Source of the DNA: a virus | Length of the DNA stretch: 55,629 bases | IMG/VR virus record: IMGVR_UViG_3300008117_000712 | Coordinates: 1 to 55,629 of that record | Reading direction: 5' to 3' (one strand) | Part shown: one piece after another, positions 442-28,685 of the stretch | How positions within the stretch are numbered: the stretch's first letter is position 1 | How the letters are laid out: each line of letters opens with the position of its first letter | Position numbers and translations under genes: made by a program | Notes under the pieces: generated by a model | The model's input: only the letters and a program-made list of their open reading frames with translations | Told to the model about the DNA's origin: nothing | The model's database searches: none

Positions 442-987
442 ATGAAGTCATACAGAGAATTCGTAACAGAGGCAGCATCCCGTTCCCTTTCCCGCCTACA
501 CAGCCATATTGAGCGTGGGCATATGGTAGGTTTCATCTCAGCAAGCCGTGGGAATCTTTCTCCCGCCGAGAACAACAAGCGGACGAAGGCACTCAAGGCA
601 AGCCTCAAGCAGCATGGATATACTCCTGTTCCTGTAAAGGGCGAGTACATCGAAGACCACAATGGAGAGAAGAAGAAGGTGAAGGAGAAGTCCTTCATGG
701 TCCATTCAGGACAACCTGTTCAATGGTCAAGCAATCCAAACGCAGGACATGCCATCTTCTTGAAGAATCTCAAGAAGCACGGAGAGCAGTTTGGTCAAGA
801 CACCGTTCTTTCTGTTTCAAAGAAGCATGGTTCTGTGTTCCATGGAACGGGCAAGTCTGATTGGGTTCCCAAGGGTAAGAGAGCGCGTATTGGCGGGGCT
901 GGTCTGAAGTCTGGTCCTGAGATTGAAAAGGGTGAGTTCAAGTCCCGACTGAAGAAGCGACCCTTCATCGTCGGTGGAGGTGACTGA
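442..987 (+). CDS. capsid-targeted DUF3293-like protein
   Basis: 181 residues. The start follows AGGAGATATTCAG; the longer frame from 382 lacks a site. The N-terminus MKSYREFVTEAASRS resembles the T4 capsid-targeting peptide MKTYQEFIAEA, with a VTE/A site suited to a prohead protease. The rest (FISASRGNLSPAENNKRTKA, then FLKNLKKHGEQFGQDTVL) resembles DUF3293, in which a conserved 'N..R...L...L...GY' segment is followed by 'FGQ.AVL'. The C-terminus is basic. A late promoter precedes it. It is probably packaged in the head and injected; the biochemical role of DUF3293 is unknown. Confidence 0.72.
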   Translation: MKSYREFVTEAASRSLSRLHSHIERGHMVGFISASRGNLSPAENNKRTKALKASLKQHGYTPVPVKGEYIEDHNGEKKKVKEKSFMVHSGQPVQWSSNPNAGHAIFLKNLKKHGEQFGQDTVLSVSKKHGSVFHGTGKSDWVPKGKRARIGGAGLKSGPEIEKGEFKSRLKKRPFIVGGGD

Positions 988-1208
988 TGAGTTTCTATAC
1001 AGCATGGATGAATAGTTTTCGTGGAAAGTGCAAGTTTGATGTTTCACTATTCGCACTTTCTGAAGAAGAGCGAAAGGCAGAGTTCGGAGAAGACGACCCC
1101 GTCGATGAACTTCGCAATATGACAGCAAGTGAGAGAATCGCAATGTACGGAACAGACTTTTCTGAATACTTCAACAAGTCTGTCATGAACCCCGACCACG
1201 GCATTTGA
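987..1208 (+). CDS. small acidic protein, unknown
   Basis: 73 residues. Its ATG shares one base with the TGA of the preceding gene, so translation is probably coupled. The sequence has an acidic middle (EEERKAEFGEDDPVDELRN). No recognised family. It closes the first operon, just before the early promoter at 1265. Confidence 0.6.
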   Translation: MSFYTAWMNSFRGKCKFDVSLFALSEEERKAEFGEDDPVDELRNMTASERIAMYGTDFSEYFNKSVMNPDHGI

Positions 1209-1264
1209 TTCAGAATCATTAGTCAACGATCCAAAGATTCTTTTCAAAACACGATCCAAGGTAG

Positions 1265-1292
1265 TTGACAGCGAACGAATCTGCCATATACT
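1265..1292 (+). promoter_or_regulatory. sigma-70-type early promoter
   Basis: TTGACA (1265-1270), a 16-base spacer and TATACT (1287-1292) give a near-consensus promoter in a non-coding gap. Transcription would begin near 1299, leaving a leader of about 78 bases before the gene at 1377. gp32 has the same box pair and spacing. Confidence 0.8.
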
Positions 1293-1376
1293 TGTAGCAC
1301 AACAGTTGAGGAGCGCACGGGACTGCGGTGCGCGGCCTCTTTCAAAGTGAAGCAGTCAATGTAGGAGTGTAAGACT

Positions 1377-1670
1377 ATGGCAACCGCCACCAAGACCCGT
1401 TCGACCCGTTCGCTCTCCAAGACCCGTCAGGTCATCAACTATCTCTCGTCAGGCAAGACCCTGAGTGCGGCTCAGGCCAACAGCAAGTTCGGCGTGAAGA
1501 ACCTCCGCGCGATGATCTCCAGCATCCGTGAGCGTGTTGAGGCGCACGGCAACTGGGAGATCCTCACCGAGTCGAACAGCCGTGGTGACACGCTCTACCG
1601 CATGGTGGACATCCACCCTGGCACCCGCACCTACGGGTTCGACAAGAACGGCAACCGCTACTCGCTGTAA
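1377..1670 (+). CDS. winged helix-turn-helix-like DNA-binding protein
   Basis: 97 residues, G+C-rich. The N-terminus is basic and Ser/Thr-rich. Residues about 15-60 (RQVINYLSSGKTLSAAQANS, then LRAMISSIRER) read as a small helix-turn-helix in which a 'step-down' helix precedes a recognition helix; the C-terminus (GTRTYGFDKNGNRYSL) resembles a wing. It is the first gene after a strong early promoter and has its own terminator, which fits an early regulator of host or phage transcription. That role is inferred. The protein at 6556 has a comparable small helix-turn-helix. Confidence 0.65.
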   Translation: MATATKTRSTRSLSKTRQVINYLSSGKTLSAAQANSKFGVKNLRAMISSIRERVEAHGNWEILTESNSRGDTLYRMVDIHPGTRTYGFDKNGNRYSL

Positions 1671-1763
1671 ACTGACAGAATATATTGTTAATGTCCGCGT
1701 GGGAACGGCGGTCGGCTTCAGCGGATGAGCCGATACTGAAACTCTAGTACTAGTCTAGAACGA

Positions 1764-1800
1764 CGGCAGGGGCTAACACCCCCTGCCGTTCCCTTTTTAT
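1764..1800 (+). terminator. Rho-independent terminator
   Basis: Perfect stem CGGCAGGGG (1764-1772) with CCCCTGCCG (1780-1788) and a seven-base loop, followed by CCCTTTTT. It ends the single-gene unit 1377-1670. Confidence 0.88.
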
Positions 1801-1810
1801 GGAGAGACAT

Positions 1811-1954: not shown

Positions 1955-1986
1955 CAGCCCATACCGCCAAAGTAAAATCACCACAC

Positions 1987-2060
1987 GCACCTGTAACTCA
2001 GTTGGATAGAGTAACGGATTTCTAATCCGTCTGTCGCAGGTTCGAATCCTGCCAGGTGTG
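1987..2060 (+). tRNA. tRNA-Arg (anticodon TCT)
   Basis: Cloverleaf with acceptor GCACCTG/CAGGTGT (the outer pair is G-U), D arm ACTC..GAGT, anticodon arm ACGGA-TTTCTAA-TCCGT with anticodon TCT, and T arm with GGTTCGAATCC. CCA is not encoded. It reads AGA, which is frequent in the late A+T-rich genes and scarce in the early genes. Confidence 0.93.
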
Positions 2061-11418: not shown

Positions 11419-11955
11419 ATGGACAAGACCATATCCTCGCAAAGGACGGAAGACTTCCGTGGGGGCATCCAACTTGGTGCAACAGCATATGATGATCTTT
11501 CACGGGAAATGAATATCCGCCTAACGCGGATCAAGAAATCTCTTGCAACGGAACTCTCACAGAGCGGCTACTCAATGAAGGTTAAAATCAATGAAAACGA
11601 TCATGCAGTGCTTCACAGGGGGTGTTCCCCAGATGGCGGGATATGGTTCGATGCCACAGGCAAGGCGATTGTTGCATTTGAATCAAAGAAGCAAGGTGTG
11701 CGTGGAAATGCCCATGAGAGATGGTTCAAGAACTTCATGTTCATCTCGCATATCTACAATGGAATCAGATATGTGACATTTGTATCGGGGAAAGGTTGTG
11801 ACTCTAACATGGGAGACGACTTTCGGAGTTTTCTCGAAATGCAAGGTAGAAAGACCGACATCCTCTATCCAGATGGAGCATCTTTCTTCCTCTCGCAATC
11901 GGGGTTTACCGACGATGAGGTTCGGGAAATCATGAGAAAGGCAGTTGTGCAATGA
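11419..11955 (+). CDS. EcoRI-like PD-(D/E)XK restriction endonuclease
   Basis: 178 residues from the ATG after TGAGGAGACGAACG; 11404 is an alternative. The core matches EcoRI: SPDGGIWF carries the metal-binding Asp72 (EcoRI PDGG, Asp91), AFESKKQG gives Glu88 and Lys90 (EcoRI AEAKHQG, Glu111/Lys113), and GNAHERWFKN (96-105) matches EcoRI GNAIERSHKN, including the Asn, Glu and Arg that read AATT. It is much shorter than EcoRI (277 residues), with a shorter first hairpin and C-terminal region. Its stop overlaps the methyltransferase start (ATGA), so the two are co-translated. It probably cuts DNA; the site is unknown. Confidence 0.78.
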   Translation: MDKTISSQRTEDFRGGIQLGATAYDDLSREMNIRLTRIKKSLATELSQSGYSMKVKINENDHAVLHRGCSPDGGIWFDATGKAIVAFESKKQGVRGNAHERWFKNFMFISHIYNGIRYVTFVSGKGCDSNMGDDFRSFLEMQGRKTDILYPDGASFFLSQSGFTDDEVREIMRKAVVQ

Positions 11956-12782
11956 AGCCATTGTTCATGTGGGCTGGTGGAAAGTCGAAGATGATGAAGC
12001 ACTATGTGCCTTTCATGAACTTTGGGAAGGTGGACACCTATTCGGAACCATTCTTCGGCGGTGGGGCAATGCTCATCAAGGTCATGCGTGACCATGCTCC
12101 GAGAAAGGTATACATCAATGACATCAATGCGGACATCATGAACATCTACTCCGCGATCAAGAGCAGTCCGAATCTCTTCATCGGGGAGATGGATGGCTAC
12201 TCATCGGTCTACCTACCACTCTCCAAGGAGGATAGGAAGAAGTACTTTTATGATCTTCGTACTACACATGCTTTCGAATACGAGAAGTACGATTCAGTCC
12301 CCCGCGCTGCCTTGCTGTACTTCCTGATGAAGACTGCCTTCAATGGAATCTGGCAGATCAACAAGAACACGAACAACAGGTTCGGGACTCCATCGGGACT
12401 TCTCAACCAGCGGGATGCGGTCTATGATCGGGATAATGTCCTTGCATGGTCGCACATGCTGAACTCCACAGATACGATACTGACATCAACGGATTGGTCG
12501 AATGTCCCGATCTCAGACTTCACATTCATGGATCCACCGTACAGGGATTCATTCGCGGACTACAATGAGTCCTTTCCCGATGCAGAACTTCTGAAACTCA
12601 TGAAGGTGGTGGAGGATCACAAGGGGGTATGGTTGTGCAATCGGGATTGTGGAGATGGCTTCTTCGATGGCATGAAGGCAACGGTGCATAGGTTCCCCGT
12701 GACCTATACTGCGGGAAGAAGAAAGAGAACCGAGGATGGGTATGAAGCAAAGAAGGCAATGGAGATACTTGCATACAACTGA
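11952..12782 (+). CDS. dam: D12-class N6-adenine DNA methyltransferase
   Basis: 276 residues, the usual length for Dam/DpnM proteins. It transfers methyl from SAM to adenine N6 in DNA. Motif I is FMWAGGKSKMM followed by YSEPFFGGGAM; YINDINADIMNIY follows; the catalytic motif IV is FMDPPYRDSFADY. D12 enzymes usually methylate GATC; the target here is not readable from sequence. It overlaps the EcoRI-like nuclease by 4 bases and ends at a terminator. It may protect phage DNA from that nuclease or from host enzymes. Confidence 0.88.
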   Translation: MKPLFMWAGGKSKMMKHYVPFMNFGKVDTYSEPFFGGGAMLIKVMRDHAPRKVYINDINADIMNIYSAIKSSPNLFIGEMDGYSSVYLPLSKEDRKKYFYDLRTTHAFEYEKYDSVPRAALLYFLMKTAFNGIWQINKNTNNRFGTPSGLLNQRDAVYDRDNVLAWSHMLNSTDTILTSTDWSNVPISDFTFMDPPYRDSFADYNESFPDAELLKLMKVVEDHKGVWLCNRDCGDGFFDGMKATVHRFPVTYTAGRRKRTEDGYEAKKAMEILAYN

Positions 12783-16113: not shown

Positions 16114-16572
16114 ATGATTCGTACACTCAGTAGAACATCCCCCGAGGTGAAGGACTTCCTGAAGTTCATAAAGGAAGACCTGAAGAACCACAGAATCCAC
16201 TTGAAGTTCTCAAAGAACCGCAATGTAAGGTTCAGCAAGACCACCACCACAGCAGCCTACTTCCATGAACCCGCGTCCAATAGATGGGGTTCTATTCGCA
16301 TTGGTACAGGCAATAGGAAACCCATTACGATACTCACAAACCTAGTCCATGAGTATTGCCATTTCATCCAATGGAAGAACGGTGACAGGGACTGGCTCAA
16401 GGGCAGTGGGGATCACATCGAAGGATCCCGCTATGTGCTTCTTGAGGAGCGTACAGAGAAGGAAATGATTTCCCTCATGCGCTCATGGAATCTTCCATTG
16501 AACTTCTCAGGAATTCGTAAACGCTCTCGTTCCTACATTGCATGGCTTCGATCAAACGAAATAGATATCTGA
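16114..16572 (+). CDS. HExxH metallopeptidase-like protein
   Basis: 152 residues with GAAGGAGGACTCTG upstream. ILTNLVHEYCHFIQW carries a zinc HExxH motif (HEYCH). A possible third ligand is in SRYVLLEERTEKEM. The C-terminus is basic (SGIRKRSRSYIAW). It resembles small phage zincins; the substrate is unknown. The FmdB-like zinc ribbon is the next gene. Confidence 0.7.
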   Translation: MIRTLSRTSPEVKDFLKFIKEDLKNHRIHLKFSKNRNVRFSKTTTTAAYFHEPASNRWGSIRIGTGNRKPITILTNLVHEYCHFIQWKNGDRDWLKGSGDHIEGSRYVLLEERTEKEMISLMRSWNLPLNFSGIRKRSRSYIAWLRSNEIDI

Positions 16573-16982: not shown

Positions 16983-17531
16983 ATGAGATACACAGAAGCA
17001 AGAGCAATCCTATCAGAAGCAATCGAACAACTTGATGAGACAAAACTTTTACAGAGACAAATATCTCCAGGACAACAAGGAGGCTCAACAAAGTTTTATC
17101 CGCGAGATGACCCGTCTTCTCCTTATCATTGGTACCCGACGAATGATGAGCCATTTGGACCATCGAAGTGGTTTCCGTTACCAGCCTATCCTGGTGATGC
17201 GCCACCTCCCCCAATAGATCTACGCAAGCCACCACCACCACTAAGGAGTCCAAAGGAACGACTACAGGATGAACAAGATAGAGCAAAGCGCAAAGACTAT
17301 AATGATACGCGACAGAGGGATCGATTAAGAGACTTTCGCAAAAAAATACAGGATGGATTAAACCAGAAACCATATCAAAGACCTTATGTGGCACCTTCTG
17401 GACCTGGTGCGGGTTGGAATAATCCATATAGCCGCCCTTCTGAGCCTCCTCACCAAACTAGACAGCAAGAGCAATCCTATCTGAAGCCATCGAACAGTTG
17501 GATGAGAAAGAACTCCTACAAAGACTTGTAG
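16983..17531 (+). CDS. capsid-targeted Pro-rich protein, copy 1
   Basis: 182 residues as read. The N-terminus MRYTEARAILSEAIEQLDE looks like a capsid-targeting peptide with an LSE/A protease site. A Pro/Tyr/Trp-rich middle is followed by a basic helix (RDRLRDFRKKIQDGLNQKPY). The last 25 residues run through the start of copy 2 in the wrong frame, which suggests the original stop was lost by deletion. It is one of three tandem paralogues (16983, 17498, 18169). AGA/AGG codons are common. Probably packaged with DNA; function unknown. Confidence 0.65.
   Translation: MRYTEARAILSEAIEQLDETKLLQRQISPGQQGGSTKFYPRDDPSSPYHWYPTNDEPFGPSKWFPLPAYPGDAPPPPIDLRKPPPPLRSPKERLQDEQDRAKRKDYNDTRQRDRLRDFRKKIQDGLNQKPYQRPYVAPSGPGAGWNNPYSRPSEPPHQTRQQEQSYLKPSNSWMRKNSYKDL
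17463..17506 (+). repeat. 44-base exact direct repeat, copy A
   Basis: Identical to 18182-18225. It encodes the targeting-peptide segment ARAILSEAIEQLDE. In this copy the codons upstream (start codon and first residues) are replaced by ...CTAGACAG, with an in-frame TAG. Confidence 0.9.
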
Positions 17532-18133
17532 ACCCAGGTGATAGCACATTTGAACGCTCGCGTGGAGGATCAAAAAAACCATCTAGCCCAGGCATATGGG
17601 GACCGCAGTATCGACCGTTAAGACCAGATCCATCGGAACCAGTTGTATACCCTCCAGCCAACCCTCAACAAAAACTTCCACCAGTTTTTAGACCAGATTT
17701 TGAGGACAGTCCACAAACTCCAAGACCAAGAGATCCAGATCCAGAGTATGGCAATCCTTTTAACCGCAAACCTTGGGGGTGGCAACCAGGCAAGCCTCTT
17801 GAAATTCGTCCACCTGTTTATAGCCCCGATGGTGATCTTATAAAACCTGCAATATTCCCGTGGACAGAACCACATAGACCTCTACCCCCACCTGAGAGCA
17901 GACCAGAAAGACCTTCAAGAATTCCCCGCCCACCCATAGGTGGGCAACCAAGAGTTCCAGGTGTAAAGTATCCCAATGATGCGGGTGGTCTGCGTGGTCC
18001 ATTAGATCCTATTGAAATCGAACGAAGACGCAATAATCTACAGCGTGATCGTGAAAGGTTGAGAAGATTCCGTGATCAAGTGCGAGATGGATTAAACCAA
18101 AGACCATATCAAAGTCAACCGCGATTCAGATAA
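17498..18133 (+). CDS. Pro-rich virion protein, copy 2, start damaged
   Basis: 211 residues from the ATG at 17498 (MDEKELLQRL). The same frame upstream encodes ARAILSEAIEQLDE, the targeting peptide of its paralogues, but the start codon is missing and TAG precedes it. The middle is very Pro-rich; the C-terminal helix is RDRERLRRFRDQVRDGLNQR. If translated from 17498, the protein lacks most of the targeting peptide and may not be packaged. It may be a decaying gene, or assembly may have collapsed a repeat. Confidence 0.55.
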   Translation: MDEKELLQRLVDPGDSTFERSRGGSKKPSSPGIWGPQYRPLRPDPSEPVVYPPANPQQKLPPVFRPDFEDSPQTPRPRDPDPEYGNPFNRKPWGWQPGKPLEIRPPVYSPDGDLIKPAIFPWTEPHRPLPPPESRPERPSRIPRPPIGGQPRVPGVKYPNDAGGLRGPLDPIEIERRRNNLQRDRERLRRFRDQVRDGLNQRPYQSQPRFR

Positions 18134-18168: not shown

Positions 18169-18522
18169 ATGAGATACGAAGCAGCAAGAGCAATCCTATC
18201 TGAAGCCATCGAACAGTTGGATGAGTACAAATATATGCAGCCAGTGGACCCCGTATACCCATTTGATCCTGCAAGAGATAAGTTCAATCCTAAGAAACAC
18301 ATGCATGATGTCTGGATGCCCGTTCCACCCACAGGAGTGGATCCAGGCTTACCACGCGTTCCACCAATAGACATTGGAAAACCACCACCACCAATGATGA
18401 CTCCACAAGAAAGAGCGGAGGAAAGAAGGCAGGAAGGTATGAGGCGTTATCGTGGGGAAAGAATACTCCGTGACCGACTGAGAAAATTCGGTGATACAGT
18501 ACGAGATGCATTACGCCGTTAG
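18169..18522 (+). CDS. capsid-targeted Pro-rich protein, copy 3
   Basis: 117 residues. An intact targeting peptide MRYEAARAILSEAIEQLDE leads into a short Pro-rich middle (VPPTGVDPGLPRVPPIDIGK) and the shared basic C-terminal helix (ILRDRLRKFGDTVRDALRR). It is the shortest of the three paralogues. No enzymatic motif; the helix suggests binding to DNA or to the head core. Confidence 0.68.
   Translation: MRYEAARAILSEAIEQLDEYKYMQPVDPVYPFDPARDKFNPKKHMHDVWMPVPPTGVDPGLPRVPPIDIGKPPPPMMTPQERAEERRQEGMRRYRGERILRDRLRKFGDTVRDALRR
18182..18225 (+). repeat. 44-base exact direct repeat, copy B
   Basis: Identical to 17463-17506, within the intact start of copy 3. It could allow recombination that deletes the intervening 719 bases. 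Confidence 0.9.
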
Positions 18523-18562: not shown

Positions 18563-19882
18563 ATGAACAACCTATTCCTAAACCACCTAAACTCAATCAC
18601 ACCTCAAGGAAAAGCCAAAGATACATGCATCTTTGTTCCTGCAAGTGATATTAATGAAGCCCCCAAGTATGTCCAAGATGCCATTCCCGCAGTCCCAAAT
18701 CTTTACATGCTCACCTACAGTCCTGGTGAGAAGAATGAGACTCAGGGTGGAAGGAGGAAGTTCGTTGGTAAGATGAAGAAGAATCCTTCTATGGTCTATG
18801 AGGGTGCCTACAAGGGTGCCATGGAGGATTGGCTAACTGATCTTCCCAAGCCAGCGATTGCGGAACTCAAGGCAAAGCACGGGAAGGAACTTGCCCATAC
18901 GGGTGGAGCGGGATACCGAGACATTGCCACCAAGAAGACCCTTCCACTTCACAAGTCCATCGTCGGCATCCTGAAGAAGCACAAGGTCAAGCCATTTGCC
19001 CAAAACATCCATGACTCGTCCCATGTCATCCAGATGTCATTCCATACCTTCCATGGTGACATGAATGAGGAGAAGCATGTGGATGATGAGGGTGGAATGG
19101 CAATGGGTGAACTCAAGTCTATTATTGCAAATGCTAATGACATCATGTCGATGCTAAAGTCTGATTCTCAACTTGAGGGATGGGTTCAGTCCAAGATTAC
19201 GAAATCAGCAGATTACATTTCTTCAGTGAAAGACTACCTTTCCAATACTCCAAATTCGATATCTGAAGAGGAGAAAAAGAAAGAAGAAAATGAAGAATCA
19301 ACCAAGAGCATGATTGCTCGTCTTGTTGCTAGGGGTCACAAGAAACTTGGTAAAAAGATTCCCGATGATGTGATCCGCGATGTCGATCCAAAGTACAAGA
19401 CCAAGGATGACATGTACGAAGCCGCACAAGAGATAGACAATCTTCCTCCAAGCGACAATCCATTTTGGCAAGGTAGTAGAACTAGAAAGCCATCTGATGG
19501 AAGACCAAATCTTTTTTGGAGAAGGAAAGTAAATCCTGGTAATGAAATAGATGCTCTTGAGCCAAGAGGATCAAGAGATATTCGCTATTTTGAAGGACAG
19601 AGGCAGTTGAGAGATAGGCTTCCTTCAAATCCTCCTCCAAGTGTAGCAGAGGCAGCACCCGACATTGGACAGAACCTCAAGGGGATGCCAAAGAGGGCGG
19701 GTAGAAAACTTGCATATGCTTCCAAGAGGTGGGGCAAGGGCGAAATCCCATACAGCGAGTACAAGGTTGCGGATGAAAGACACACCCGCAAGATGGGTGG
19801 AAATGCAAGACGAATTGGAAAGAATCTTGACCAAGCCGTGACAGACTTCATCTCAAGGAAGCCAAGACGAAAGCGAAGATGA
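18563..19882 (+). CDS. virion protein with MNN.FL.HL.SITPQGKA leader
   Basis: 439 residues from the ATG at 18563, after AGAGAGAAAAG; the frame opens at 18545. The leader MNNLFLNHLNSITPQGKA recurs at 24173. The middle (MAMGELKSIIANANDIMSML, then LEGWVQSKITKSADYISSVK) matches a helical module common in phage virion proteins ('L..I...A......W.QSKI..A.DY...V'). A Lys/Glu linker follows, then the REL-like segment RQLRDRLPSNPPP and a strongly basic tail (KPRRKRR). It probably belongs to the head core or injected cargo. Confidence 0.72.
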   Translation: MNNLFLNHLNSITPQGKAKDTCIFVPASDINEAPKYVQDAIPAVPNLYMLTYSPGEKNETQGGRRKFVGKMKKNPSMVYEGAYKGAMEDWLTDLPKPAIAELKAKHGKELAHTGGAGYRDIATKKTLPLHKSIVGILKKHKVKPFAQNIHDSSHVIQMSFHTFHGDMNEEKHVDDEGGMAMGELKSIIANANDIMSMLKSDSQLEGWVQSKITKSADYISSVKDYLSNTPNSISEEEKKKEENEESTKSMIARLVARGHKKLGKKIPDDVIRDVDPKYKTKDDMYEAAQEIDNLPPSDNPFWQGSRTRKPSDGRPNLFWRRKVNPGNEIDALEPRGSRDIRYFEGQRQLRDRLPSNPPPSVAEAAPDIGQNLKGMPKRAGRKLAYASKRWGKGEIPYSEYKVADERHTRKMGGNARRIGKNLDQAVTDFISRKPRRKRR

Positions 19883-19887
19883 GTTAG

Positions 19888-20196
19888 ATGAAATCATTCA
19901 ATCAGTTCATTTCCGAAAGTTCAGAAAGACTTGTGAAGATTAAGCAGTCTGGTCATTCTGCAAACATCCGCAAGATTGATGACAACACATCCATGTTCTC
20001 TCATCGTGGTGTGGTCGGTCATGTGACCAAGGCATGGAACCGCATGGGTGGTTGGGGGTATCAGGCGGGGAACATCCGCGTGAATGGTAAGGATGTCGGT
20101 CTTCCCGTGATCCATGGAACACACAAGACCATGAATGATGCCATTCACAATGCCTATCAGCACACGATGTGGCACATGTCCAAGGGGAAGAAATGA
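19888..20196 (+). CDS. capsid-targeted small protein
   Basis: 102 residues. MKSFNQFISESSERL is a clear capsid-targeting sequence with an ISE/S cleavage site. The body (HRGVVGHVTKAWNRMGGWGY; HKTMNDAIHNAYQHTMWHM) is His/Trp/Gly-rich, with no family I recognise. It overlaps the following peptidase gene by 4 bases. Confidence 0.7.
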   Translation: MKSFNQFISESSERLVKIKQSGHSANIRKIDDNTSMFSHRGVVGHVTKAWNRMGGWGYQAGNIRVNGKDVGLPVIHGTHKTMNDAIHNAYQHTMWHMSKGKK

Positions 20197-20561
20197 AGTC
20201 CTTCATGCAGTTCATTTCAGAGCAGAATGAGAACACGATCAATGACTTCGTGCAGTTCGCTGCACAGGAACTTGGCTTGCAGACCACTCCAAGCATCAGG
20301 TTGTTGCAGTCGCGTGAGAATGGCATGACCACGGCATCCTATTGCCCCGAGGACAAGAGCATCAAGGTATTGTGTGGCAACAGAGCCACATTTGACATTT
20401 GCAGATCCATTGCACATGAGTTGGTGCATCAGATGCAGGATGAGAATGGCGATGAACTCGACGGAGAGACGGGATCACCATGCGAGGATGAAGCCAATGC
20501 ACTCGCGGGTAGGTTGATTCGCACCTATGGCGGCAACAATGCTGGCTTCTATGAGGAATAA
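20193..20561 (+). CDS. capsid-targeted zinc metallopeptidase
   Basis: 122 residues; ATG overlaps the upstream TGA. The targeting peptide MKSFMQFISEQNENT (ISE/Q) is followed by a minimal zincin: RSIAHELVHQMQ gives HExxH, and PCEDEANALAGRLIR supplies the likely third ligand Glu. The arrangement resembles small zinc peptidases in T4-like phages of marine bacteria. With the leader it should be packaged and delivered with the DNA, acting on a host protein or in capsid maturation. Confidence 0.78.
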   Translation: MKSFMQFISEQNENTINDFVQFAAQELGLQTTPSIRLLQSRENGMTTASYCPEDKSIKVLCGNRATFDICRSIAHELVHQMQDENGDELDGETGSPCEDEANALAGRLIRTYGGNNAGFYEE

Positions 20562-20564: not shown

Positions 20565-21068
20565 ATGAAGACCTACGAACAGTTCATTGCAGAGGCAATG
20601 GAAATAAAGAATCTTTCCGAGAATTGGTCATATGCTCATGATTTTGATGAGATGCCGAACTCAGAGAAGCAGAAGTATGTCTACCATGTCACAACGGCAG
20701 CAAGGGCAGCAAAGATTGTCAAGCATGGTCTGAAGCCACGCAGTCCAAAGGGTCGCACCAACTACCCAGGCAACAAGGAATACACCCAAGGTCATGCATT
20801 CGTGACCAATCATCAAGGTGTGCGCTATTGGAAGGATCAGACGCTTCATGCAGTGAATCGACGCAAGCGCGAGGTGGATGAAAGAGACTACGAAAACATC
20901 CATGTGGTAAAGTTCCCAATCTCAAATCTCGCAAAGTCCACAAAAAGAAAGTTCACGACCGATCAACTTGGCACCAAGGATGCAAGGAAACATGATGATG
21001 ATCCACTCATTGATCCATCAAGTCATGAAGGATCCACCGCATTCAGGATTCGAAAGAAAGTCCGCTGA
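20565..21068 (+). CDS. capsid-targeted ADP-ribosyltransferase-like protein
   Basis: 167 residues with AAGAG upstream. MKTYEQFIAEAMEIK is almost identical to the T4 internal-protein targeting peptide MKTYQEFIAEA. KYVYHVTTAARAAKIVKHGLKP followed by HAFVTN matches the fold signature of ADP-ribosyltransferase/RNA 2'-phosphotransferase proteins ('YH.T......I...GL.P ... .FLT'). This would parallel T4 Alt, an injected ADP-ribosyltransferase that modifies host RNA polymerase. The catalytic acidic residue cannot be fixed. A +1 frame reading continues naturally to a stop at 21153 (DGLIGGFDVSEWWYISTIDD), so the C-terminus may be frameshifted. Confidence 0.72.
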   Translation: MKTYEQFIAEAMEIKNLSENWSYAHDFDEMPNSEKQKYVYHVTTAARAAKIVKHGLKPRSPKGRTNYPGNKEYTQGHAFVTNHQGVRYWKDQTLHAVNRRKREVDERDYENIHVVKFPISNLAKSTKRKFTTDQLGTKDARKHDDDPLIDPSSHEGSTAFRIRKKVR

Positions 21069-21215: not shown

Positions 21216-23375
21216 ATGAATACCATTACAATAACCAAGATAGAAGAAGCATCCGCACCCAATAAGGGCAAGGCATTTCTCCTTGCTGGATCGTTCAGTC
21301 CATACACGGTTGGACACCATGAGGTTGCACGACAAGCCGCTGAACATGCTAAAGGTACAGGTCATACGCACTTCTACCATGGCATCGGTGGTGCGGCAAA
21401 GCAGACGCACGACGATCCATTGACACACGCACAGAAGAGATCCATTGTCCGTGCTGGTCACAGAGAACTCGCAAAGGAACACAAAGGGTTGAAGTTCCGT
21501 GCGATGGGATCGGAGCAAAGAGATCCATTCAGGCAACTTGCACACCTCGCGCAGAGGGGTCACAAGCACATCACGGTTGGTCTTGGCTCCGATCAGATGA
21601 AAGGCAAGTTGAAAAGGGAAATAGAGGGCAGCATTGCAAAAAAGGGTGGCATTGAGGACAAGACGGGAAAGATCCACAAGGTCAGGGTGGACTTCCATCA
21701 ACTTGGTGGAGAGAGACACGAAGGAGAGATGCCACGACATGAGGTGTTGAGTAGATTGAGGAAGGGAGACATCAGCGTTGCAAAGGCTGGTCGTCTTCGC
21801 AAGGCGGTTGCATCTGGTGATACAGAACTAGCACATGAACTCATGCCAAAGCACATGAATAAGCCAAAGTACTTCGGCATGATCAAGTCCGCACAATCGA
21901 AGATAGCAAAGCCAAAGAAGAAGGTGGTGAAAGAAGGCTACATGTCCTTCGCTGAGTTTGTTTCGGAGGACATCGAACTGATTCCCGTAACTAGAGATAG
22001 AGATGCAGGGAAGCCAAGGAAAGCAGAGGTTGTCCACAAGGACTATGGAACGAAGACCTACTCATCCGACAAGGTTGTGACTCGAAAGAATCATGGAGAG
22101 ATTCATCCTGGTTACGAACTTCATCAGCACTCCGTCGAGATGGACAACAACAGACCGAGTGGACCACAAAGGATTGTGAAGCACAAGTTCACGATAGTAC
22201 ACAAGGCAAGCGGAGATATCGCTGGAGAAATGCACGCTTGGGGTGGCAAACTTCATCCGAAGAAGGGCGTTGTGTTTGGGTCAAAAGGCAAGGCACTGAA
22301 GGTATCTCATCTTGAGATGCATCCCGAACACGGCAGCAAGAAGGTCGGAGCATCTTTGCCCGTTGAAATGTACAGACATCTTCATAGAAGAGGACATGCC
22401 ATTCAATCTGATTCAGTACAGAGCCACGGTGGAGCGCATGTGTGGAACACAATGCGTAATGATCGTGAACTCAAGAAGCACATGATGATCCATGATGATG
22501 ACAAGGTAGACACGAAGCAAAAACATGCATTTCAGACTCGCGCATATAGAAGACCAGAGAGACACATTTGGCACCAGTTCAGCAGAAGTTGGAGTGGCGG
22601 AAGAGATAATCCATCAAAGGTAGAACCAGAGTATGGAGTTGATCCCGACTTCAAGAGGACATTGATTCTTGCTGGTAAGAAGCGCAAGAAGAAGCCCGCT
22701 GTTGTATCGGAAGACATTGAGATGGCTGATATTCTTGTAAAGCCGAAGAGCGGTGGACTGAGTCCACGAAACTTTGAGAAGATGGTCGCACACAAAGGGT
22801 TGAAGCCAAAGAGATCTGGTAAGATTGCAAAGGGATACACTCTCTACACATCGGTTGATGCAACACATCCCGAATTTGAAGATCACCATATCGTGCATGA
22901 TGCAACAGGACATGTTGCGGGTGAAGTTTCGACTCGCACATCTGGCAACGACCACACGGTCATTCACACAGATGTTCATGGAGATCACACACAGAAAGTA
23001 ATAGGAAAATCCCTTGCCGTGCTTGCATATAAGCACCTTGCAAAGAAGAAGGGAAACCTACACAGCAGCAGTCTACAGAGTCCTGGTGGTGCATCCATAT
23101 GGAATAGACTTCGCAAGAATCCAAAGATGAAGGGTCAGGTCTTTCATAAGATGAGAGGACAGGCAGAGGTTCCTGCACACGATCTACCCGATAAGAAGAT
23201 ATGGGCAACAGATGTCAAAGGTGGAATGTCATCATCCAACAAAGATATTCCAAAGCCTCTTCCTCCATCGAAGCATCATGCCGCAGAGCATGAAAATGTG
23301 ATAGGATCGCGTCTTGTGATCAGACCCATAAAAAAGACTAAATATAAAAGTACCAAAACAGGAGAAACAAAATGA
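21216..23375 (+). CDS. three-domain virion polyprotein: nucleotidyltransferase + two GNAT-like domains
   Basis: 719 residues. Residues 20-240 contain FLLAGSFSPYTVGHHEV, a nucleotidyltransferase GxFxPxxxGH motif (TVGH), and VGLGSDQMKG, as in NMN/pantetheine adenylyltransferase folds. Residues 243-254 (MSFAEFVSEDIE) look like an internal capsid-targeting/cleavage segment, and VVSEDIE recurs at 496-502. After each comes a GNAT-like domain: SHLEMHPEHGSKKVGASL with SVQSHGGAHVWNTM near 365-415, and DVHGDHTQKVIGKSLAV with SLQSPGGASIWNRL near 585-630. I infer cleavage by the prohead protease into three injected proteins. Substrates are unknown. Confidence 0.75.
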   Translation: MNTITITKIEEASAPNKGKAFLLAGSFSPYTVGHHEVARQAAEHAKGTGHTHFYHGIGGAAKQTHDDPLTHAQKRSIVRAGHRELAKEHKGLKFRAMGSEQRDPFRQLAHLAQRGHKHITVGLGSDQMKGKLKREIEGSIAKKGGIEDKTGKIHKVRVDFHQLGGERHEGEMPRHEVLSRLRKGDISVAKAGRLRKAVASGDTELAHELMPKHMNKPKYFGMIKSAQSKIAKPKKKVVKEGYMSFAEFVSEDIELIPVTRDRDAGKPRKAEVVHKDYGTKTYSSDKVVTRKNHGEIHPGYELHQHSVEMDNNRPSGPQRIVKHKFTIVHKASGDIAGEMHAWGGKLHPKKGVVFGSKGKALKVSHLEMHPEHGSKKVGASLPVEMYRHLHRRGHAIQSDSVQSHGGAHVWNTMRNDRELKKHMMIHDDDKVDTKQKHAFQTRAYRRPERHIWHQFSRSWSGGRDNPSKVEPEYGVDPDFKRTLILAGKKRKKKPAVVSEDIEMADILVKPKSGGLSPRNFEKMVAHKGLKPKRSGKIAKGYTLYTSVDATHPEFEDHHIVHDATGHVAGEVSTRTSGNDHTVIHTDVHGDHTQKVIGKSLAVLAYKHLAKKKGNLHSSSLQSPGGASIWNRLRKNPKMKGQVFHKMRGQAEVPAHDLPDKKIWATDVKGGMSSSNKDIPKPLPPSKHHAAEHENVIGSRLVIRPIKKTKYKSTKTGETK
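23337..23344 (+). promoter_or_regulatory. late promoter (ACTAAATA)
   Basis: ACTAAATA lies within the end of the polyprotein gene, 27 bases before the next ATG (23372), which also has ACAGGAGAAACAAA as ribosome-binding site. Confidence 0.5.
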
Positions 23376-24172
23376 GCATTCCAAACATTCAGCAGCAACT
23401 TTACCTCAAGAAAGCACTCAATGAGGACACCGATGGGATGTTCGATCATCCAACTCTTGATGAAGGTTCCTATGTTCACTCAAAGAAGCAACTCAAGAAA
23501 GCCGTCAAGGGTTCAAAGAGAGAGATTGTCAAGGCACTCAAGCGCGGCAACAAGAAAGATGCTGAGTTTTGGATGCAGAACAAGAAGGACGCAGAGTCAC
23601 AAATGTCTGAATCCATTGCTGAAGGTTCTTATGTTCACTCAAAGAACCAACTAAAGAAGGCTGTCAAAGGTTCAAAGAGAGAGATTGTCAAGGCAATGAA
23701 GCGCGGCAACAAGAAGGATGCAGAGTTTTGGATGCAGAACAAAAAGGATGCAGAATCACAAATGTCTGAATCCATTACTGAAGGTTTGCTCCGCAGATAC
23801 AACGAACTCACAGAAGGATCACGCGGTCTTGCTCGTTATCAGCGCATCGTAAAGGCATTGACAAAAAAGGCCGCTTCTTTGAAATCCACCCCAAAGCCAA
23901 CAACAATGGCTGGTGATGAAGCACTTCATAAGAGAACTATGAATAAACTAAAACTTTCAAAGGGTCAGCAGTTGCGTGACCGTGTGCAGATTTCTCGCGA
24001 ACGCATGAGGGCTGGATTGGCTCCAAGCATTCCATCAAAGACCGTGAGTCCCGCTCAAGGTGATGAGACAGGAACATGGAGAATCAAGTCTGGTGCTGAT
24101 CGCGCGCCAAAAACAGTTTTAAAGTATCGCGCAGCATCGGCAGCAAAAGCAGCAAAAGGAAAGGCCAAGTAA
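23372..24172 (+). CDS. tandem-repeat precursor of basic virion peptides
   Basis: 266 residues; ATG overlaps the upstream TGA. Residues 32-84 and 85-137 are near-identical 53-residue basic units (SYVHSKKQLKKAVKGSKREI; KKDAEFWMQNKKDAESQ). Each unit is bounded by [LI]xE/G sites: LDE/G (31), IAE/G (84), ITE/G (137), and another LTE/G at 148. This matches the T4 prohead protease rule. The C-terminal third has the recurring helix QQLRDRVQISRERMRAGL and a Lys/Ala tail. It is probably cut during head maturation into small packaged peptides, like T4 internal peptides II and VII. Confidence 0.75.
   Translation: MSIPNIQQQLYLKKALNEDTDGMFDHPTLDEGSYVHSKKQLKKAVKGSKREIVKALKRGNKKDAEFWMQNKKDAESQMSESIAEGSYVHSKNQLKKAVKGSKREIVKAMKRGNKKDAEFWMQNKKDAESQMSESITEGLLRRYNELTEGSRGLARYQRIVKALTKKAASLKSTPKPTTMAGDEALHKRTMNKLKLSKGQQLRDRVQISRERMRAGLAPSIPSKTVSPAQGDETGTWRIKSGADRAPKTVLKYRAASAAKAAKGKAK
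23465..23623 (+). repeat. 159-base coding repeat, unit 1
   Basis: Encodes residues 32-84 of the repeat protein. The unit is followed directly by unit 2 with a few substitutions. Confidence 0.88.
23624..23782 (+). repeat. 159-base coding repeat, unit 2
   Basis: Encodes residues 85-137, differing from unit 1 at only a few residues (KK/KN, AL/AM, IA/IT), so the duplication is recent or under strong constraint. Confidence 0.88.
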
Positions 24173-25165
24173 ATGAACAATCAGTTTCTACAACATCTCA
24201 AGTCCATCACTCCTCAAGGCAAGGCCGAGGAGAAGAAGATATTCATCTCAGCAGAACGACTCAAGGAGTTGGAGGCAGAAGAACTTGATGAGGCCACACG
24301 CTCCAAGTATCTAAAGGTATATGGTAAGCACAAGGTTGGAACTGATACAGGCGCACTTGAACTTGCAAGAAAGAAGCACGATGCTGCCATCATGCGTCGC
24401 GGTGGTGCTTCTCCAGAGGCAGTTAAGAGGGGACTAGCCAATGAATATGGCATAGACCACGAAGTTGATATGGCAAAGTATAGATTTGCAAACAAGAGGG
24501 CTAAACACTTAGATAAAGCGATTGCCAATTATAATAGAAAAGCAAGCAAGTCAACGAACGAGGCCGTATCAACCAATGACCCAAACAGAGGTCGCATGGG
24601 AAGAGCAAAGCCAAAACTACCACCTGGTCTAGATCCTTATGATATGTACAGCAAGGGTGAGATTCAACCATATGGTGGCAAACTTCAGAAGAGACTTCGC
24701 TCAATGAGTGCAGAAGATCGCAAGAGATACTATCAGCAGATCGGCATTCGTTCACGCGCTGCAAGCCGTAGTGGAAAGACTCAGAGATTGTTTCCTATGA
24801 CTGAAGGCGTTAAGAGGATGCGTAGGCTTCGCTCTGCGCGATTTGGGCAACAGGGAACCACGAAGGAACTTGATGCTGCCTATGATAAGGAACTCTCCAA
24901 GGTGAGCGCAAGCCGTCTTCGTCGTGGCGGTGCGCCAAAGCAGACCGTTCGTGCGTTCTTCACAGACAAGCCAACCACAAAGGCAGCGGACAAGGCATAT
25001 TCGAAGTTCTCCAAGGATGCAATGAACAAGGCAAGTGCCAAGGGCAAGAAGATCTTCGAAGCAACTAAGGTTGGCAAGAAGATCAAGCGCAAGATTGTGA
25101 AAGCAAAAAACAGGCTTCGCAACATCGGAAGAAGAGTAGTAGATACACTTGGCAATGAAGACTAG
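24173..25165 (+). CDS. basic virion protein with MNN.FL.HL leader
   Basis: 330 residues, starting right after the previous stop. The leader MNNQFLQHLKSITPQGKAEE matches that of 18563. A motif RRGGAs..aVkrg occurs twice (IMRRGGASPEAVKRGL and LRRGGAPKQTVRAFF) and again in the product at 26069. Very basic (Lys/Arg) with helical segments; the C-terminus KKIKRKIVKAKNRLRNIGRR suggests DNA binding. Likely head core or cargo. Confidence 0.68.
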   Translation: MNNQFLQHLKSITPQGKAEEKKIFISAERLKELEAEELDEATRSKYLKVYGKHKVGTDTGALELARKKHDAAIMRRGGASPEAVKRGLANEYGIDHEVDMAKYRFANKRAKHLDKAIANYNRKASKSTNEAVSTNDPNRGRMGRAKPKLPPGLDPYDMYSKGEIQPYGGKLQKRLRSMSAEDRKRYYQQIGIRSRAASRSGKTQRLFPMTEGVKRMRRLRSARFGQQGTTKELDAAYDKELSKVSASRLRRGGAPKQTVRAFFTDKPTTKAADKAYSKFSKDAMNKASAKGKKIFEATKVGKKIKRKIVKAKNRLRNIGRRVVDTLGNED

Positions 25166-26105
25166 AGATCTTAAATCACTATCAGAAACAATCGCATCCG
25201 TGGTCGATCCAATCGATAAGGAACGCGCACAGATGCTACAGGAAGGCTTTCTCAACTCGTTGACCGAGAAGGCTCGTCAGATCGCTTCCAAGGAAATGGA
25301 AGATGAAGGCGAAGAGGAAGAAGACGAGGACGAGATGGAGGATGAAGGCGAAGAGGAAGAGAAGCCAACCTCCAAGAAGAAAAAGGCCAAGATGGATGAG
25401 GCTTATCCAACGACTTATGTACCAGAACCAAAGCCAGTAAAGCCAGAACCAAAGCCAGTAAAGCCAAAGAAGAAATTGAGTGATTATAGATCAAAGCCTT
25501 ATCCAAAACTCACCAATGAGGACATCGAACTTGCAGAGAAGGCAGCACCTGGCTATGAGGATTGGGCATCCGATCCCAAGGTCAAGGCATCCTTCAAGAA
25601 GCAATACGGCAAGCGTTGGAAGGAAGTCATGTACGGACACTCATGGAACCTTGCCAAGCAGGAAAACAAGTTGGGTTTGGATGAAGAAGAACAGTTGGAT
25701 GAATTGACTGATGCCCTTATTAGCAGGGCAAGGAACAAGGCAATCCTACGAGGTCCAGAGAAGCGTGGTTTTGTTAAGAAAGCAACAAAGAGACTCCAAT
25801 CAAGCGGAGCAATGGCTCCACGACCAAGCACTTCGACGGAACGCGATTCACAGTGGAACAAAGCATTCAATGAAGAAACTGATTTGGATGAAGCAGTATC
25901 CGCCAAGCGTATGCGTATCATCCGCAAGTATGTCAAGGGAAATAAGAGAGTTCCAGAGCATCTGAAGGACTACATGGAGAGATCCTTCAAGAAGAAGAGG
26001 TTCAAGGACAAGCAACTCTCCGATGGTAGAGGAGCAGTCGGTGCATTGGAGACTCGTACAAGGCAAGTATGGCTCGTCGTGGTGAAGCAACACAAGAGAC
26101 AGTAA
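25155..26105 (+). CDS. virion protein with acidic linker, probably frameshifted at its 3' end
   Basis: 316 residues from the ATG at 25155, overlapping the upstream gene. It has the leader KTRDLKSLSETIASVV (LSE/T), a second site MLQEGFLNSLTE, an acidic block near 50-75, Pro/Lys repeats (PEPKPVKPEPKPVK), then basic helices. The last 15 residues (TRTRQVWLVVVKQHKRQ) look out of frame. The -1 frame (GDSYKASMARRGEATQETV) continues naturally into 26069-26407 and contains the RRG motif of the neighbouring gene. A one-base change near 26040 may have split one gene. Confidence 0.66.
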   Translation: MKTRDLKSLSETIASVVDPIDKERAQMLQEGFLNSLTEKARQIASKEMEDEGEEEEDEDEMEDEGEEEEKPTSKKKKAKMDEAYPTTYVPEPKPVKPEPKPVKPKKKLSDYRSKPYPKLTNEDIELAEKAAPGYEDWASDPKVKASFKKQYGKRWKEVMYGHSWNLAKQENKLGLDEEEQLDELTDALISRARNKAILRGPEKRGFVKKATKRLQSSGAMAPRPSTSTERDSQWNKAFNEETDLDEAVSAKRMRIIRKYVKGNKRVPEHLKDYMERSFKKKRFKDKQLSDGRGAVGALETRTRQVWLVVVKQHKRQ

Positions 26106-26615: not shown

Positions 26616-27602
26616 ATGGCAATCAATAGAGACGCATACAAGTCACTCGTAGAGTCAGTCAATGAGGCTGTCTCTGCACCATCAGTGGGTGCATCAAAGG
26701 GTGCAGCCCGTGTAAGAGGCGGAAGAACTTCCTCGACTGCATCATCCAAGCCATCGAATCTCCAATGGGGTTCATCGGCAATCGGTGGAGCAATGAACGC
26801 AACTGAACTTGCACAATGGCTTGCATCACAGCAAGGAAGTGGAAAGCAAGGCCCATCAGTCGGCGTTGCTGACACAGCAATGGGTGTTGCGAAGGGATCG
26901 GCAGCAAAGAACCTCTCCAGCGTATCTGGAAGAGGTGGCTCAAACACACAGCGTGCAGCAGCATCATCTTCTGGGTGGGGTGGCTCTGGTGTCTACGGTG
27001 CAAAGAATGCAGAAGATCTTGCCCGTATCCTAAATCAAATGCAGAATGATGGGCCATCTGTTTCGACGGGTGCATCAAAGGGTGGCATGAAGTCACGAAA
27101 CAATCCACTCTCAAGTCGCAAGCCAGGATCAACGAGTTCATCTAAGCCAGCAGCAAAGAAGCCAACCGTTTCCGTTGCTGATGTTCAAGAAGCACTTGAT
27201 ATCCTTGCAGAGGCTCAACTAAACGAGTGGCCGATCAATATTGGTGGCCGCACTGCAAACAATGCATCTGAACTTGCACAGATCCTAAACTCAATGCAGA
27301 ATTCAGGAAAGCCATCGGGTTCAACTCCATCTGTTTCTAAGGGAGTTGCTGGTGCTGCCCCAAGAGGAAACCTCCTATCAAACCGTAGACCAGGTACAAC
27401 TACAACGGCAAAGCCAGCACCAAAGGCTCCAACAGTTGGAGTTGGTGGCATAGGAGCAATGTCTGAAGAATGGGACATCCTTGACGAGATCCTCGCAGAA
27501 GGTCTTGAACTCTACGGGGAAGAAGGACTCGCAGAGATCCTTGCTCACTTCGCAGAGACTGGCGAGATGTCCGAAGAACTCGCTGATCTTCTTGGCGAAT
27601 AA
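26616..27602 (+). CDS. repeat-containing virion protein, core/scaffold candidate
   Basis: 328 residues. The leader YKSLVESVNEAVSAPS has an LVE/S site. Three repeats of a helix-linker unit follow: GAMNATELAQWLASQQGSG, GAKNAEDLARILNQMQNDG and ANNASELAQILNSMQNSG, each followed by PSVS-type Ser/Gly linkers. The C-terminus is acidic and helical (ILDEILAEGLELYGEEG, ..SEELADLLGE), with an LAE/G site. Acidic amphipathic tails are typical of scaffold or core proteins, but this is inference. It has its own late promoter and terminator. Confidence 0.66.
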   Translation: MAINRDAYKSLVESVNEAVSAPSVGASKGAARVRGGRTSSTASSKPSNLQWGSSAIGGAMNATELAQWLASQQGSGKQGPSVGVADTAMGVAKGSAAKNLSSVSGRGGSNTQRAAASSSGWGGSGVYGAKNAEDLARILNQMQNDGPSVSTGASKGGMKSRNNPLSSRKPGSTSSSKPAAKKPTVSVADVQEALDILAEAQLNEWPINIGGRTANNASELAQILNSMQNSGKPSGSTPSVSKGVAGAAPRGNLLSNRRPGTTTTAKPAPKAPTVGVGGIGAMSEEWDILDEILAEGLELYGEEGLAEILAHFAETGEMSEELADLLGE

Positions 27603-27628
27603 TCAAACTTAGTTAAACTTAGTCACAA

Positions 27629-27660
27629 GGGGAGAGGGTAAAACCTCTCCCCTGTTATTT
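27629..27660 (+). terminator. Rho-independent terminator
   Basis: Perfect 9-base stem, GGGGAGAGG (27629-27637) with CCTCTCCCC (27644-27652), followed by TGTTATTT. The same stem motif is used at 21172. Confidence 0.85.
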
Positions 27661-27668
27661 CATAAATA
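27661..27668 (+). promoter_or_regulatory. late promoter (CATAAATA), leaderless gene
   Basis: Immediately downstream of a terminator. Only 4 bases separate the element from the ATG at 27673, and no Shine-Dalgarno sequence is present. Confidence 0.62.
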
Positions 27669-27672
27669 CATC

Positions 27673-28164
27673 ATGGAGGATTATCTTGGAATGGCCGATT
27701 CTTTAACATCAAGCATCACTAGAGTTCTCATGGAGAGTCATGATACGGACTTGTCTGGCAAGTTCTCATTATTCACTCTTTATTCGGACAACAGTTCAGT
27801 TCTTCACATCTTCGAAGACGAGGAAACCTTTGAAGCCATGAAATACAAGTTTTCATCAGATGACAACATCAAGCGTCTCGGTGCCTCAAGGTTGCCAGAG
27901 AACACTACCTTCAAGAAACTTTCAGAATCAATAGAGCGCAAGTTCGATGTGCCAAGAGAAACAATCTCAGTCCGCACACACGATCCCATGCCCAAGGAAC
28001 AGCCACAGCCCAAGAAGGTTGTGAATGAAATGAGGAAGGCTCCCATGCCCTCAAGGGCAGAGAAAGATTCTCAAACCAACCAAGACAGCAGATGCCTCAG
28101 ATGGAGGCACCCAAGGAAGAGCCTACAATCAACTCCTTCCGCCCCGCAACGAACCAAAAAATAG
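27673..28164 (+). CDS. virion-associated protein, probably frameshifted
   Basis: 163 residues as read. The N-terminus (SLTSSITRVLMESHDTDLSG) has an LME/S site like the cargo proteins. The first 125 residues look natural (LFTLYSDNSSVLHIFEDEE). After about residue 138 the reading changes character (QDSRCLRWRHPRKS). The -1 frame instead reads MPQMEAPKEEPTINSFRP... to a stop at 28208, 3 bases before the next gene, and is the likelier true C-terminus. Function unknown. Confidence 0.6.
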   Translation: MEDYLGMADSLTSSITRVLMESHDTDLSGKFSLFTLYSDNSSVLHIFEDEETFEAMKYKFSSDDNIKRLGASRLPENTTFKKLSESIERKFDVPRETISVRTHDPMPKEQPQPKKVVNEMRKAPMPSRAEKDSQTNQDSRCLRWRHPRKSLQSTPSAPQRTKK

Positions 28165-28211
28165 ATCTGTCCAAGTTGAACAGCGGCGACAGACCAATGC
28201 TAGGATGAACC

Positions 28212-28685
28212 ATGGCCGAAAAGAAAGATAAAGAATCAAAAGAGAAGTCATCATCCAACGAGAAAACATATCTCGTCAAGTACAGGCTCAAGGGCGAGAA
28301 GGGAAGGACTCCTCGCAAGATCACTGTACAGGCATTGAACCAAGCCGATGCCAAGAAGACTGCAATAGCAACCATTCCTGGTGCAGAAGTTGTCGGTGGG
28401 GCAAAGGAACTCAGCGAAGGTGTGCTTGACTTTGCGGGTCGATTGGGTAAGTTTGCAAGTAGATGCGCTGGTAGACTCTGCCATGCCTATTCAAGTAGCC
28501 CAATCAGGGACAAGGGAAGCATCTCCACCACAAGAAAGATATTCACAAGAGAACTAGCCCACATGGCTGGAAACAAACTCATGGATATTGGTGGAGAAGA
28601 TGCAAGACCAATGTCAAAGATGCGATTCTCAAGTGGCAGAAAGAAGAAAAAGACAACTACTAGAAAAAAGAAACGATCACCATAA
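28212..28685 (+). CDS. basic protein, probably virion-associated
   Basis: 157 residues. Lys/Glu-rich start (MAEKKDKESKEKSSSNEKTY), a compact segment (YRLKGEKGRTPRKITVQALN, then ADAKKTAIATIPGAEV), a possible LSE/G site (KELSEGVLDFAG), and a very basic C-terminus (GRKKKKTTTRKKKRSP). The sites and tail fit packaging with DNA. No family recognised. Confidence 0.62.
   Translation: MAEKKDKESKEKSSSNEKTYLVKYRLKGEKGRTPRKITVQALNQADAKKTAIATIPGAEVVGGAKELSEGVLDFAGRLGKFASRCAGRLCHAYSSSPIRDKGSISTTRKIFTRELAHMAGNKLMDIGGEDARPMSKMRFSSGRKKKKTTTRKKKRSP

Follow-up and report, generated by a model that had tools for sequence, protein, structure and literature searches.

We found that four genes of the IMG/VR virus record IMGVR_UViG_3300008117_000712, analysed over its whole length of 55,629 bases (the window), begin with leader peptides of the kind that direct T4 internal proteins into the phage head. 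This T4-like myovirus probably packs enzymes into its head by the T4 internal-protein route, and one cargo, an S-adenosylmethionine (SAM) lyase, would blunt host restriction. A leader some 10 residues long at the N-terminus (M-K-[ST]-[FY]-x-x-F-[ILV]-x-E) would direct a protein made late in infection into the core of the prohead, the prohead protease gp21 would cleave after the Glu of the leader, and the mature enzyme would remain in the head beside the DNA and enter the next host at infection. A late-promoted, head-packed SAM lyase would then cleave the SAM of the new host upon entry, and the loss of SAM would blunt SAM-dependent restriction ahead of phage gene expression. Capsid targeting of the core set appears well supported, since the leaders are nearly identical to that of T4, gp21 and gp23 are encoded by the virus, the SAM lyase gene has a late-type promoter and leader-bearing homologues have been reported in virions of related cyanophages. 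Packaging of the four proteins is likely, by homology; that this phage packages and cleaves them, ejects and injects them into the host cell, takes the cell over and depletes SAM is inferred, as is the anti-restriction effect, which is plausible.

To define the leader, we built motif A (^M[KR].[FYL]..[FLY][ILVMF].E) on the functionally important positions of T4 IPIII, of which 4 and 7 serve targeting and 8 and 10 serve processing, according to the account in PMC9026906. Scanning from any start codon in all frames of both strands, we found six motif A sites in the window. The reversed sequence has none, and 20 codon-block shuffles gave 0.05 on average and never more than 1. Four of the six window sites are the starts of genes 442, 19888, 20193 and 20565 (genes are named by position; Table 1), one lies inside gene 16114 and one is antisense. 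The starts of the four leaders are plausible, and all four carry the IPIII targeting and processing residues at positions 4, 7, 8 and 10. Among 36 coding sequences tested in a 20-kb stretch of T4, motif A picked ipII and ipIII only; it misses ipI because the ipI site sits further in. A relative has counterparts of all four genes, that of 442 beginning MKSYREFISE and the others as given in Table 1, and between relatives the key leader positions are kept while the free positions vary. Applied to five related records, a fixed-codon pattern gave 4, 4, 4, 1 and 1 leader sites, with identical sites in G002 and G003, and the same pattern run backwards gave 0.

The gp32 protein of the window is 51-55% identical, over 98-99% of its length, to its best-listed matches, which come from cyanophages, marine single-cell viruses and one pelagiphage, and on this basis we assign the window to a T4-like myovirus. 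A sister IMG/VR record of 156,618 bases, G001, is the same virus, with main blocks 99.8-100% identical. No Peptidase_S77 prohead protease was found within the window alone; the search for gp21 in the rest of the genome, proposed in a first-pass annotation of this DNA, was answered by G001, which encodes gp21 (PF03420, E 3.3e-39; phrog_207, E 2.9e-80) and gp23 (E 1.1e-136), adjoined by portal- and scaffold-like open reading frames (ORFs; read by eye). The gp21-type protease and gp23 that go with T4-type capsid-targeted internal proteins are thus present in G001, outside the window.

Other leaders in the window are looser. The leader at 33088, MSKSYERFLVE/S, fits a second pattern, motif B, and three paralogues with MRY..ARAILSE/A (the AILSE paralogues) fit a third, motif C, which occurs in 13 of 225 G001 proteins compared with a shuffled mean of 4.1, protein-set counts being inflated by four leader-bearing window proteins that were added by hand. 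The LME/S leader (27691) matches the loose motif C only, and LSE/T (25155) and LVE/S (26616) match none of motifs A, B and C. By this reading of the sequence, the tally is four strong, about four moderate and three weak leaders. The first-pass annotation had proposed at least ten T4-like leaders: the four motif A leaders and about four looser ones stand, whereas LSE/T, LME/S and LVE/S (26616) are weak and the size of the arsenal was overstated. Capsid targeting appears well supported for the core set and not for the arsenal as a whole.

Gene 442-987 had been labelled DUF3293, a family against which its product scores 23.9 bits, under the cut-off of 25; it scores 53.7 bits against PF23780 (S-AdoMet_lyase; cut-off 28, E 2.6e-14). 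Residues G67, Y69, E82 and Q119 are invariant among 10 aligned sequences, which are not all independent, and they match by order and spacing, rather than by structural alignment, the substrate-binding and catalytic residues G56, Y58, E69 and Q104 reported for Svi3-3 in PMC7877911, where E69 is described as critical. On these grounds we assign the protein to the SAM lyases and predict that it cleaves SAM. A search of solved structures with its sequence gave no match at E 1. The phage also encodes a D12-class adenine methyltransferase (window 11952-12782; PF02086, E 9.5e-28), and in the cyanophage S-CREM2, too, a DNA adenine methylase stands two genes away from the SAM hydrolase.

Next, we compared the leaders with virion proteomes of relatives, taken from Table 3 of PMC10665884 (S-CREM2), Table 1 of PMC9146016 (S-SZBM1) and the S-SCSM1 proteome. 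The S-CREM2 table lists 52 proteins detected by mass spectrometry, among them all four motif A proteins (4/4, versus 48/215 others; p 0.003), as counted with a motif that was fixed only after the S-CREM2 leaders had been looked at. These four are the SAM hydrolase gp6, gp13, the kinase gp14 and the cytidylyltransferase gp154, with 19 unique peptides given for gp6 and 21 for gp14 (PMC10665884). S-CREM2 gp6 is a PF23780 protein (E 2.3e-19) and aligns with the window SAM lyase from residue 1, leader included (30% identity, E 5e-13); the window protein has 181 amino acids and gp6 has 414. One of two motif A proteins of S-SCSM1 is labelled a virion protein, an NMNAT that starts MKSFLQFLKE/A, and the cytidylyltransferase listed as detected in S-SZBM1 starts MRFRQFIIE/A, a leader one residue shorter. 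Pooling the three proteomes, leader proteins were found in virions in 5 of 8 cases, compared with 125 of 711 others (p 0.006). Cytidylyltransferase has been reported in virions of S-CREM2, S-SZBM1, S-SCSM1 and S-SM1 (for the last, PMC3037559; the S-SM1 leader itself was not looked at). All four T4-GC190 cytidylyltransferase orthologues that we fetched (P-SSM2, S-SM2, S-SSM5 and P-RSM4) carry the leader, and neither of two homologues belonging to other groups of phages has it. In S-CRM01, the kinase that is cited among virion proteins starts MISFDQFLSE. A further protein detected in S-CREM2 virions, gp12 (L159 7704-10313), is annotated as Cas9 and has LRFASFMAE/A near its N-terminus; this peptide, which starts with a CTG codon at residue 17, was not counted as a leader, and the "CRISPR-Cas9" label was set aside, as the protein has no Pfam hit.

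The SAM lyase gene follows the T4-type late-promoter core ATAAATA, which lies within TATAAATA, the T4 late consensus. We rejected an over-representation of ATAAATA in the window (5 observed, 3.68 expected), and as the count is no more than chance, only the placement is informative: 4 of the 5 sites stand 18-35 bases upstream of gene starts, that of the SAM lyase included (P 1.6e-6, for a range of 10-45 bases chosen after the sites were seen). Of 6 related SAM lyase loci, 5 (about three distinct sequences) have the core 25-30 bases ahead of the gene and one has CTAAATA; the core is also found upstream of S-CREM2 gp6 and gp154 and of the S-SCSM1 NMNAT gene; S-CREM2 gp14 has no such core upstream. 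In surveyed contigs, 26 of 76 leader genes had [AC]TAAATA no more than 60 bases away, compared with 25 of 151 other ORFs (p 0.003). Late expression of a SAM lyase would be most sensible if the enzyme works in the next cell. The window protein resembles Svi3-3 and the T3 SAMase (PF23780) in family match and active-site residues, may share the PII-like fold of Svi3-3, phage SAM lyases being among its best though low-scoring structural matches, and differs from them in its capsid-type leader and late-type promoter. The T3 SAMase is an early protein.

To see how far the leader extends, we scanned viral contigs for a ribosome-binding site followed by the leader and obtained at least 119 stretches, with at least 115 open frames that are 40 residues or longer and, after leader removal, at least 46 cargo clusters. 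A control scan with Gln for Glu at position 10 gave 14 stretches; by a count made by eye, 11 of these carry the Glu one position ahead, so that the control is not a clean negative. Six of 20 cluster representatives, the first ten of which were picked partly for visible motifs, had Pfam hits (DUF6267, ADPrib_exo_Tox, Zeta_toxin twice, one of these under the cut-off, HicA_toxin and CTP_transf_like), and 14 had none. Leader-led HicA toxin, ADP-ribosyltransferase (ART) exoenzyme and Zeta-toxin-type proteins are found at L057 1458-1706, L066 2072-4057 and L025 2990-3673. We tentatively suggest, at somewhat less than even chances, that aquatic T4-like phages use the leader as a portable address tag joined to effector domains of nearly every kind (ART-, Zeta- and HicA-type domains, SAM lyase, kinases, nucleotidyltransferases), making up a late-made, head-packed first-strike kit in which tags repeated at the domain boundaries of some proteins would let gp21 split a packed polyprotein into separate effectors.

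Such internal tags are suggested by gene 21216-23375, which had been described as a nucleotidyltransferase-GNAT polyprotein. The first half of that description holds as a cytidyltransferase-like part, recognised by phrog_395 with a Pfam score below the cut-off; the GNAT likeness was by eye, with no GNAT match in Pfam at E 0.05 or in PHROGs at E 0.01, and the two repeat domains match no family. Leader-like peptides stand at both domain boundaries (Table 1). A peptide comparable to that at the first boundary occurs at the corresponding boundary in contig L150, others lie ahead of an HNH-like region in L153, L155, L156 and L158 (by eye), and in L151 a relative of a repeat domain stands alone behind MKTYRQLLE/D. 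The fusion has no relative in the named-phage collection at E 0.01. Cleavage at its internal boundary peptides is our proposal. The adjoining ORF 23372-24172 has internal repeats ending in SESIAE/G and SESITE/G, like a protease site repeated between units.

Several observations count against a head-packed SAM lyase and must be set beside the evidence above. The virion support, in so far as it bears on this virus through homology, comes from related phages and not from this phage. In S-CREM2, motif B, which was set earlier than motif A, finds 4 of 6 leader proteins detected (p 0.03), and Table 3 of PMC10665884 gives one peptide for gp13 and three for gp154. Neither of two motif A proteins is listed as detected in S-SZBM1, where motif B does not separate detected from undetected proteins either (1/4, p 0.45). 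The undetected leader protein of S-SCSM1 is small and of the same family as one S-SZBM1 miss; the pooled misses are 3 of 8 motif A proteins, two of them from one small family. Among relatives of the SAM lyase, the leader takes a different form in L009 and L010, MKDFKQIREEAA[LE]LIE/A, and L011-L013 showed none in stretches without established starts. The AlphaFold2 model of the SAM lyase is poor (mean predicted local distance difference test, pLDDT, 50.3; best blocks 76-80), and none of its PDB matches reaches E 0.001. The three undetected proteins also speak for a different role of the leader, namely that it leads to the prohead core mainly for assembly and that many cargo proteins are core or scaffold components, degraded or leaving during maturation, rather than injected effectors. 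ORF 31314-32333 matches a head-scaffolding PHROG, and a role of IPIII in T4 head morphogenesis is described in PMC9026906. We nevertheless consider this unlikely, as no role in assembly is evident for the enzymatic cargo (SAM lyase, kinase, cytidylyltransferase, ART-type domains), and several leader enzymes have been reported in mature virions.

If instead the virion enzymes were abundant late proteins that co-purify, the shared N-terminus would be a feature of translation start or fold and not a tag. Co-purification is raised as a possibility by the S-CREM2 authors, who were unable to exclude it (PMC10665884), and the tendency of leader genes to late-type promoters would fit it. The motif, however, equals the proven T4 targeting sequence, heads at least 46 unrelated cargo clusters and prefers Glu at position 10 (at least 119 stretches, versus the 14 with Gln qualified above), which makes co-purification very improbable. 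Another question concerns the substrate, since a packed lyase could act on a different SAM-derived molecule, for instance SAM-AMP, which serves as a signal in type III CRISPR defence, and not on SAM to counter restriction. The closest PDB matches of the SAM lyase model are a phage SAM lyase (6zm9, the best), a SAM-AMP lyase (9gad), a SAM hydrolase complex (7ock) and a SAM lyase (9lqe), with E from 1.5e-3 (6zm9) to 2.9e-3 and low TM-scores; the SAM-AMP lyase chains 9gad and 9gab rank beside the phage SAM lyase with similar scores, and a model this poor cannot separate the two activities. The sequence family hit, on the other hand, is S-AdoMet_lyase and the residues match Svi3-3, and we regard a substrate other than SAM as unlikely.

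T4-type capsid addressing is known, and PMC9026906 describes the targeting sequence of T4 as used with a variety of proteins; the cargo is new. The window resembles the T4 system in its leader (MKTYQEFIAE in T4 IPII and IPIII, MKTYEQFIAE at 20565), in having gp21 and gp23 in the genome and in the clustering of several small leader proteins. It differs in its cargo, which comprises a predicted SAM lyase, a metallopeptidase-like protein and a nucleotidyltransferase fusion, and in having leader-like peptides also at internal domain boundaries. S-CREM2 and its relatives share with it a homologous SAM lyase with the same leader type and a cytidyltransferase-type protein. PMC10665884 lists SAM hydrolase, kinase and cytidylyltransferase as virion-associated and its authors proposed a virion-carried SAM hydrolase; "capsid-targeting" and "internal" have 0 occurrences in its main text, and the link to the leader is made here. 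Among the papers listed by searches of the open-licence literature, we saw none tying the leader to cyanophage virion enzymes, which does not prove absence. The P1 Dar/Ddr proteins, N4 vRNAP and the SPN3US and phiKZ ejection proteins are likewise head-packed effectors delivered with DNA, some of them protease-processed; no T4-type 10-residue leader is noted for them, a distinction drawn from their descriptions and not from sequence. If the T4 internal-protein route is indeed used for such enzymes, a 10-residue signature would predict, from sequence alone, which of the many unknown genes in T4-like phages from the sea and from fresh water have products that are virion-carried and injected. It would also explain the recurring enzymes in cyanophage virion proteomes and suggest two testable first-strike functions carried in the head, namely counter-defence by depleting SAM on entry and toxin-like domains.

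Finally, we characterized the remaining leader candidates and other features of the window (Table 1). Three functional labels from the first-pass annotation did not pass family thresholds: the zinc peptidase 20193-20561 scores 19.6 bits against Peptidase_M78 (cut-off 22), the ADP-ribosyltransferase-like protein at 20565 scores 14.8 bits against PARP (E 0.02, cut-off 26.7), and the ligase fold of 32330-33088 was a motif seen by eye in a protein that has no Pfam or PHROGs match of its own. The AlphaFold2 model of 20565, made from 4 sequences, has a pLDDT of 40 and is too low to use; its relatives in the named-phage collection at E 0.01 are PBS1-type phages only. The cargo of 19888-20196 has no Pfam or PHROGs match. 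ORF 32330-33088, whose only relative in the named-phage collection is in P-RSM6 (E 0.009), is likely the N-terminal portion of a DUF6267-type protein that is divided between it and 31314-32333; DUF6267, matched by the latter, is a family of unknown function, and the basic tail of 31314-32333 is the part that matches the head-scaffolding family (phrog_3503, E 2.5e-5). The apparent split across two overlapping ORFs is seen both in the window and in G001. A GTG start at 16147, which would give gene 16114 a perfect leader, was rejected, the ribosome-binding site belonging to the ATG at 16114.

Table 1. Leader candidates and associated features of the window
Feature	Position	Strand	Family, motif or grade
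ATAAATA, T4-type late-promoter core, 22 bases before SAM lyase start	413..419	+	
Predicted SAM lyase, leader MKSYREFVTE/A	442..987	+	PF23780, motif A
HExxH-type protein (by eye), leader-like VKDFLKFIKE/D at residues 12-21, not at start	16114..16572	+	weak candidate
AILSE/A paralogue 1, proline-rich; C-terminal end altered relative to G001	16983..17531	+	
AILSE/A paralogue 2, start (about 17465) missing in window; intact in G001 at 27803-28486	17498..18133	+	
AILSE/A paralogue 3	18169..18522	+	
Leader MKSFNQFISE/S; homologue begins MKSFSQFLTE/A	19888..20196	+	motif A
Leader MKSFMQFISE/Q, HELVH metallopeptidase-like; homologue begins MKSFNRFIAE/A	20193..20561	+	motif A
Leader MKTYEQFIAE/A, possible ART-fold; homologue begins MKTYREFIVE/A	20565..21068	+	motif A
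Fusion: cytidyltransferase-like part and two repeat domains	21216..23375	+	phrog_395 E 4.6e-6
Leader-like MSFAEFVSE (then D), first domain boundary of fusion	21942..21968	+	
VVSE (then D), second domain boundary of fusion	22701..22712	+	
LSE/T protein, frame disrupted in window; G001 copy intact (480 aa)	25155..26105	+	weak leader
LVE/S protein	26616..27602	+	weak leader
LME/S protein, end altered relative to G001; ATAAATA 22 bases upstream	27691..28164	+	weak leader
C-terminal part of DUF6267 protein, basic tail	31314..32333	-	PF19782 E 9.5e-8
Leader MSKSYERFLVE/S	32330..33088	-	motif B
Eight gaps relative to G001	12903, 17463, 25152, 26058, 28048, 39548, 44347, 50865		

Compared with G001, the window is without eight stretches of about 30-190 bases, several of which break or alter reading frames; these gaps are either assembly collapse or true variants. 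About 52 bases of G001 are absent at window 17462/17463, leaving the second AILSE paralogue without a start in the window, and all three paralogues are intact in G001, at 27282, 27803 and 28522. Further gaps alter the frames at 25155-26105 and 27691-28164, for which intact frames were read in G001. A second type of N-terminus, MNN[LQ]FL[NQ]HL[NK]SITPQGKA, is shared by 18563-19882 and 24173-25165 and may be another address tag. Amid the tail-region genes, ORF 44822-46750 matches the ribonucleotide reductase families PF02867, PF21995 and PF17975, with a B12-dependent insertion domain.

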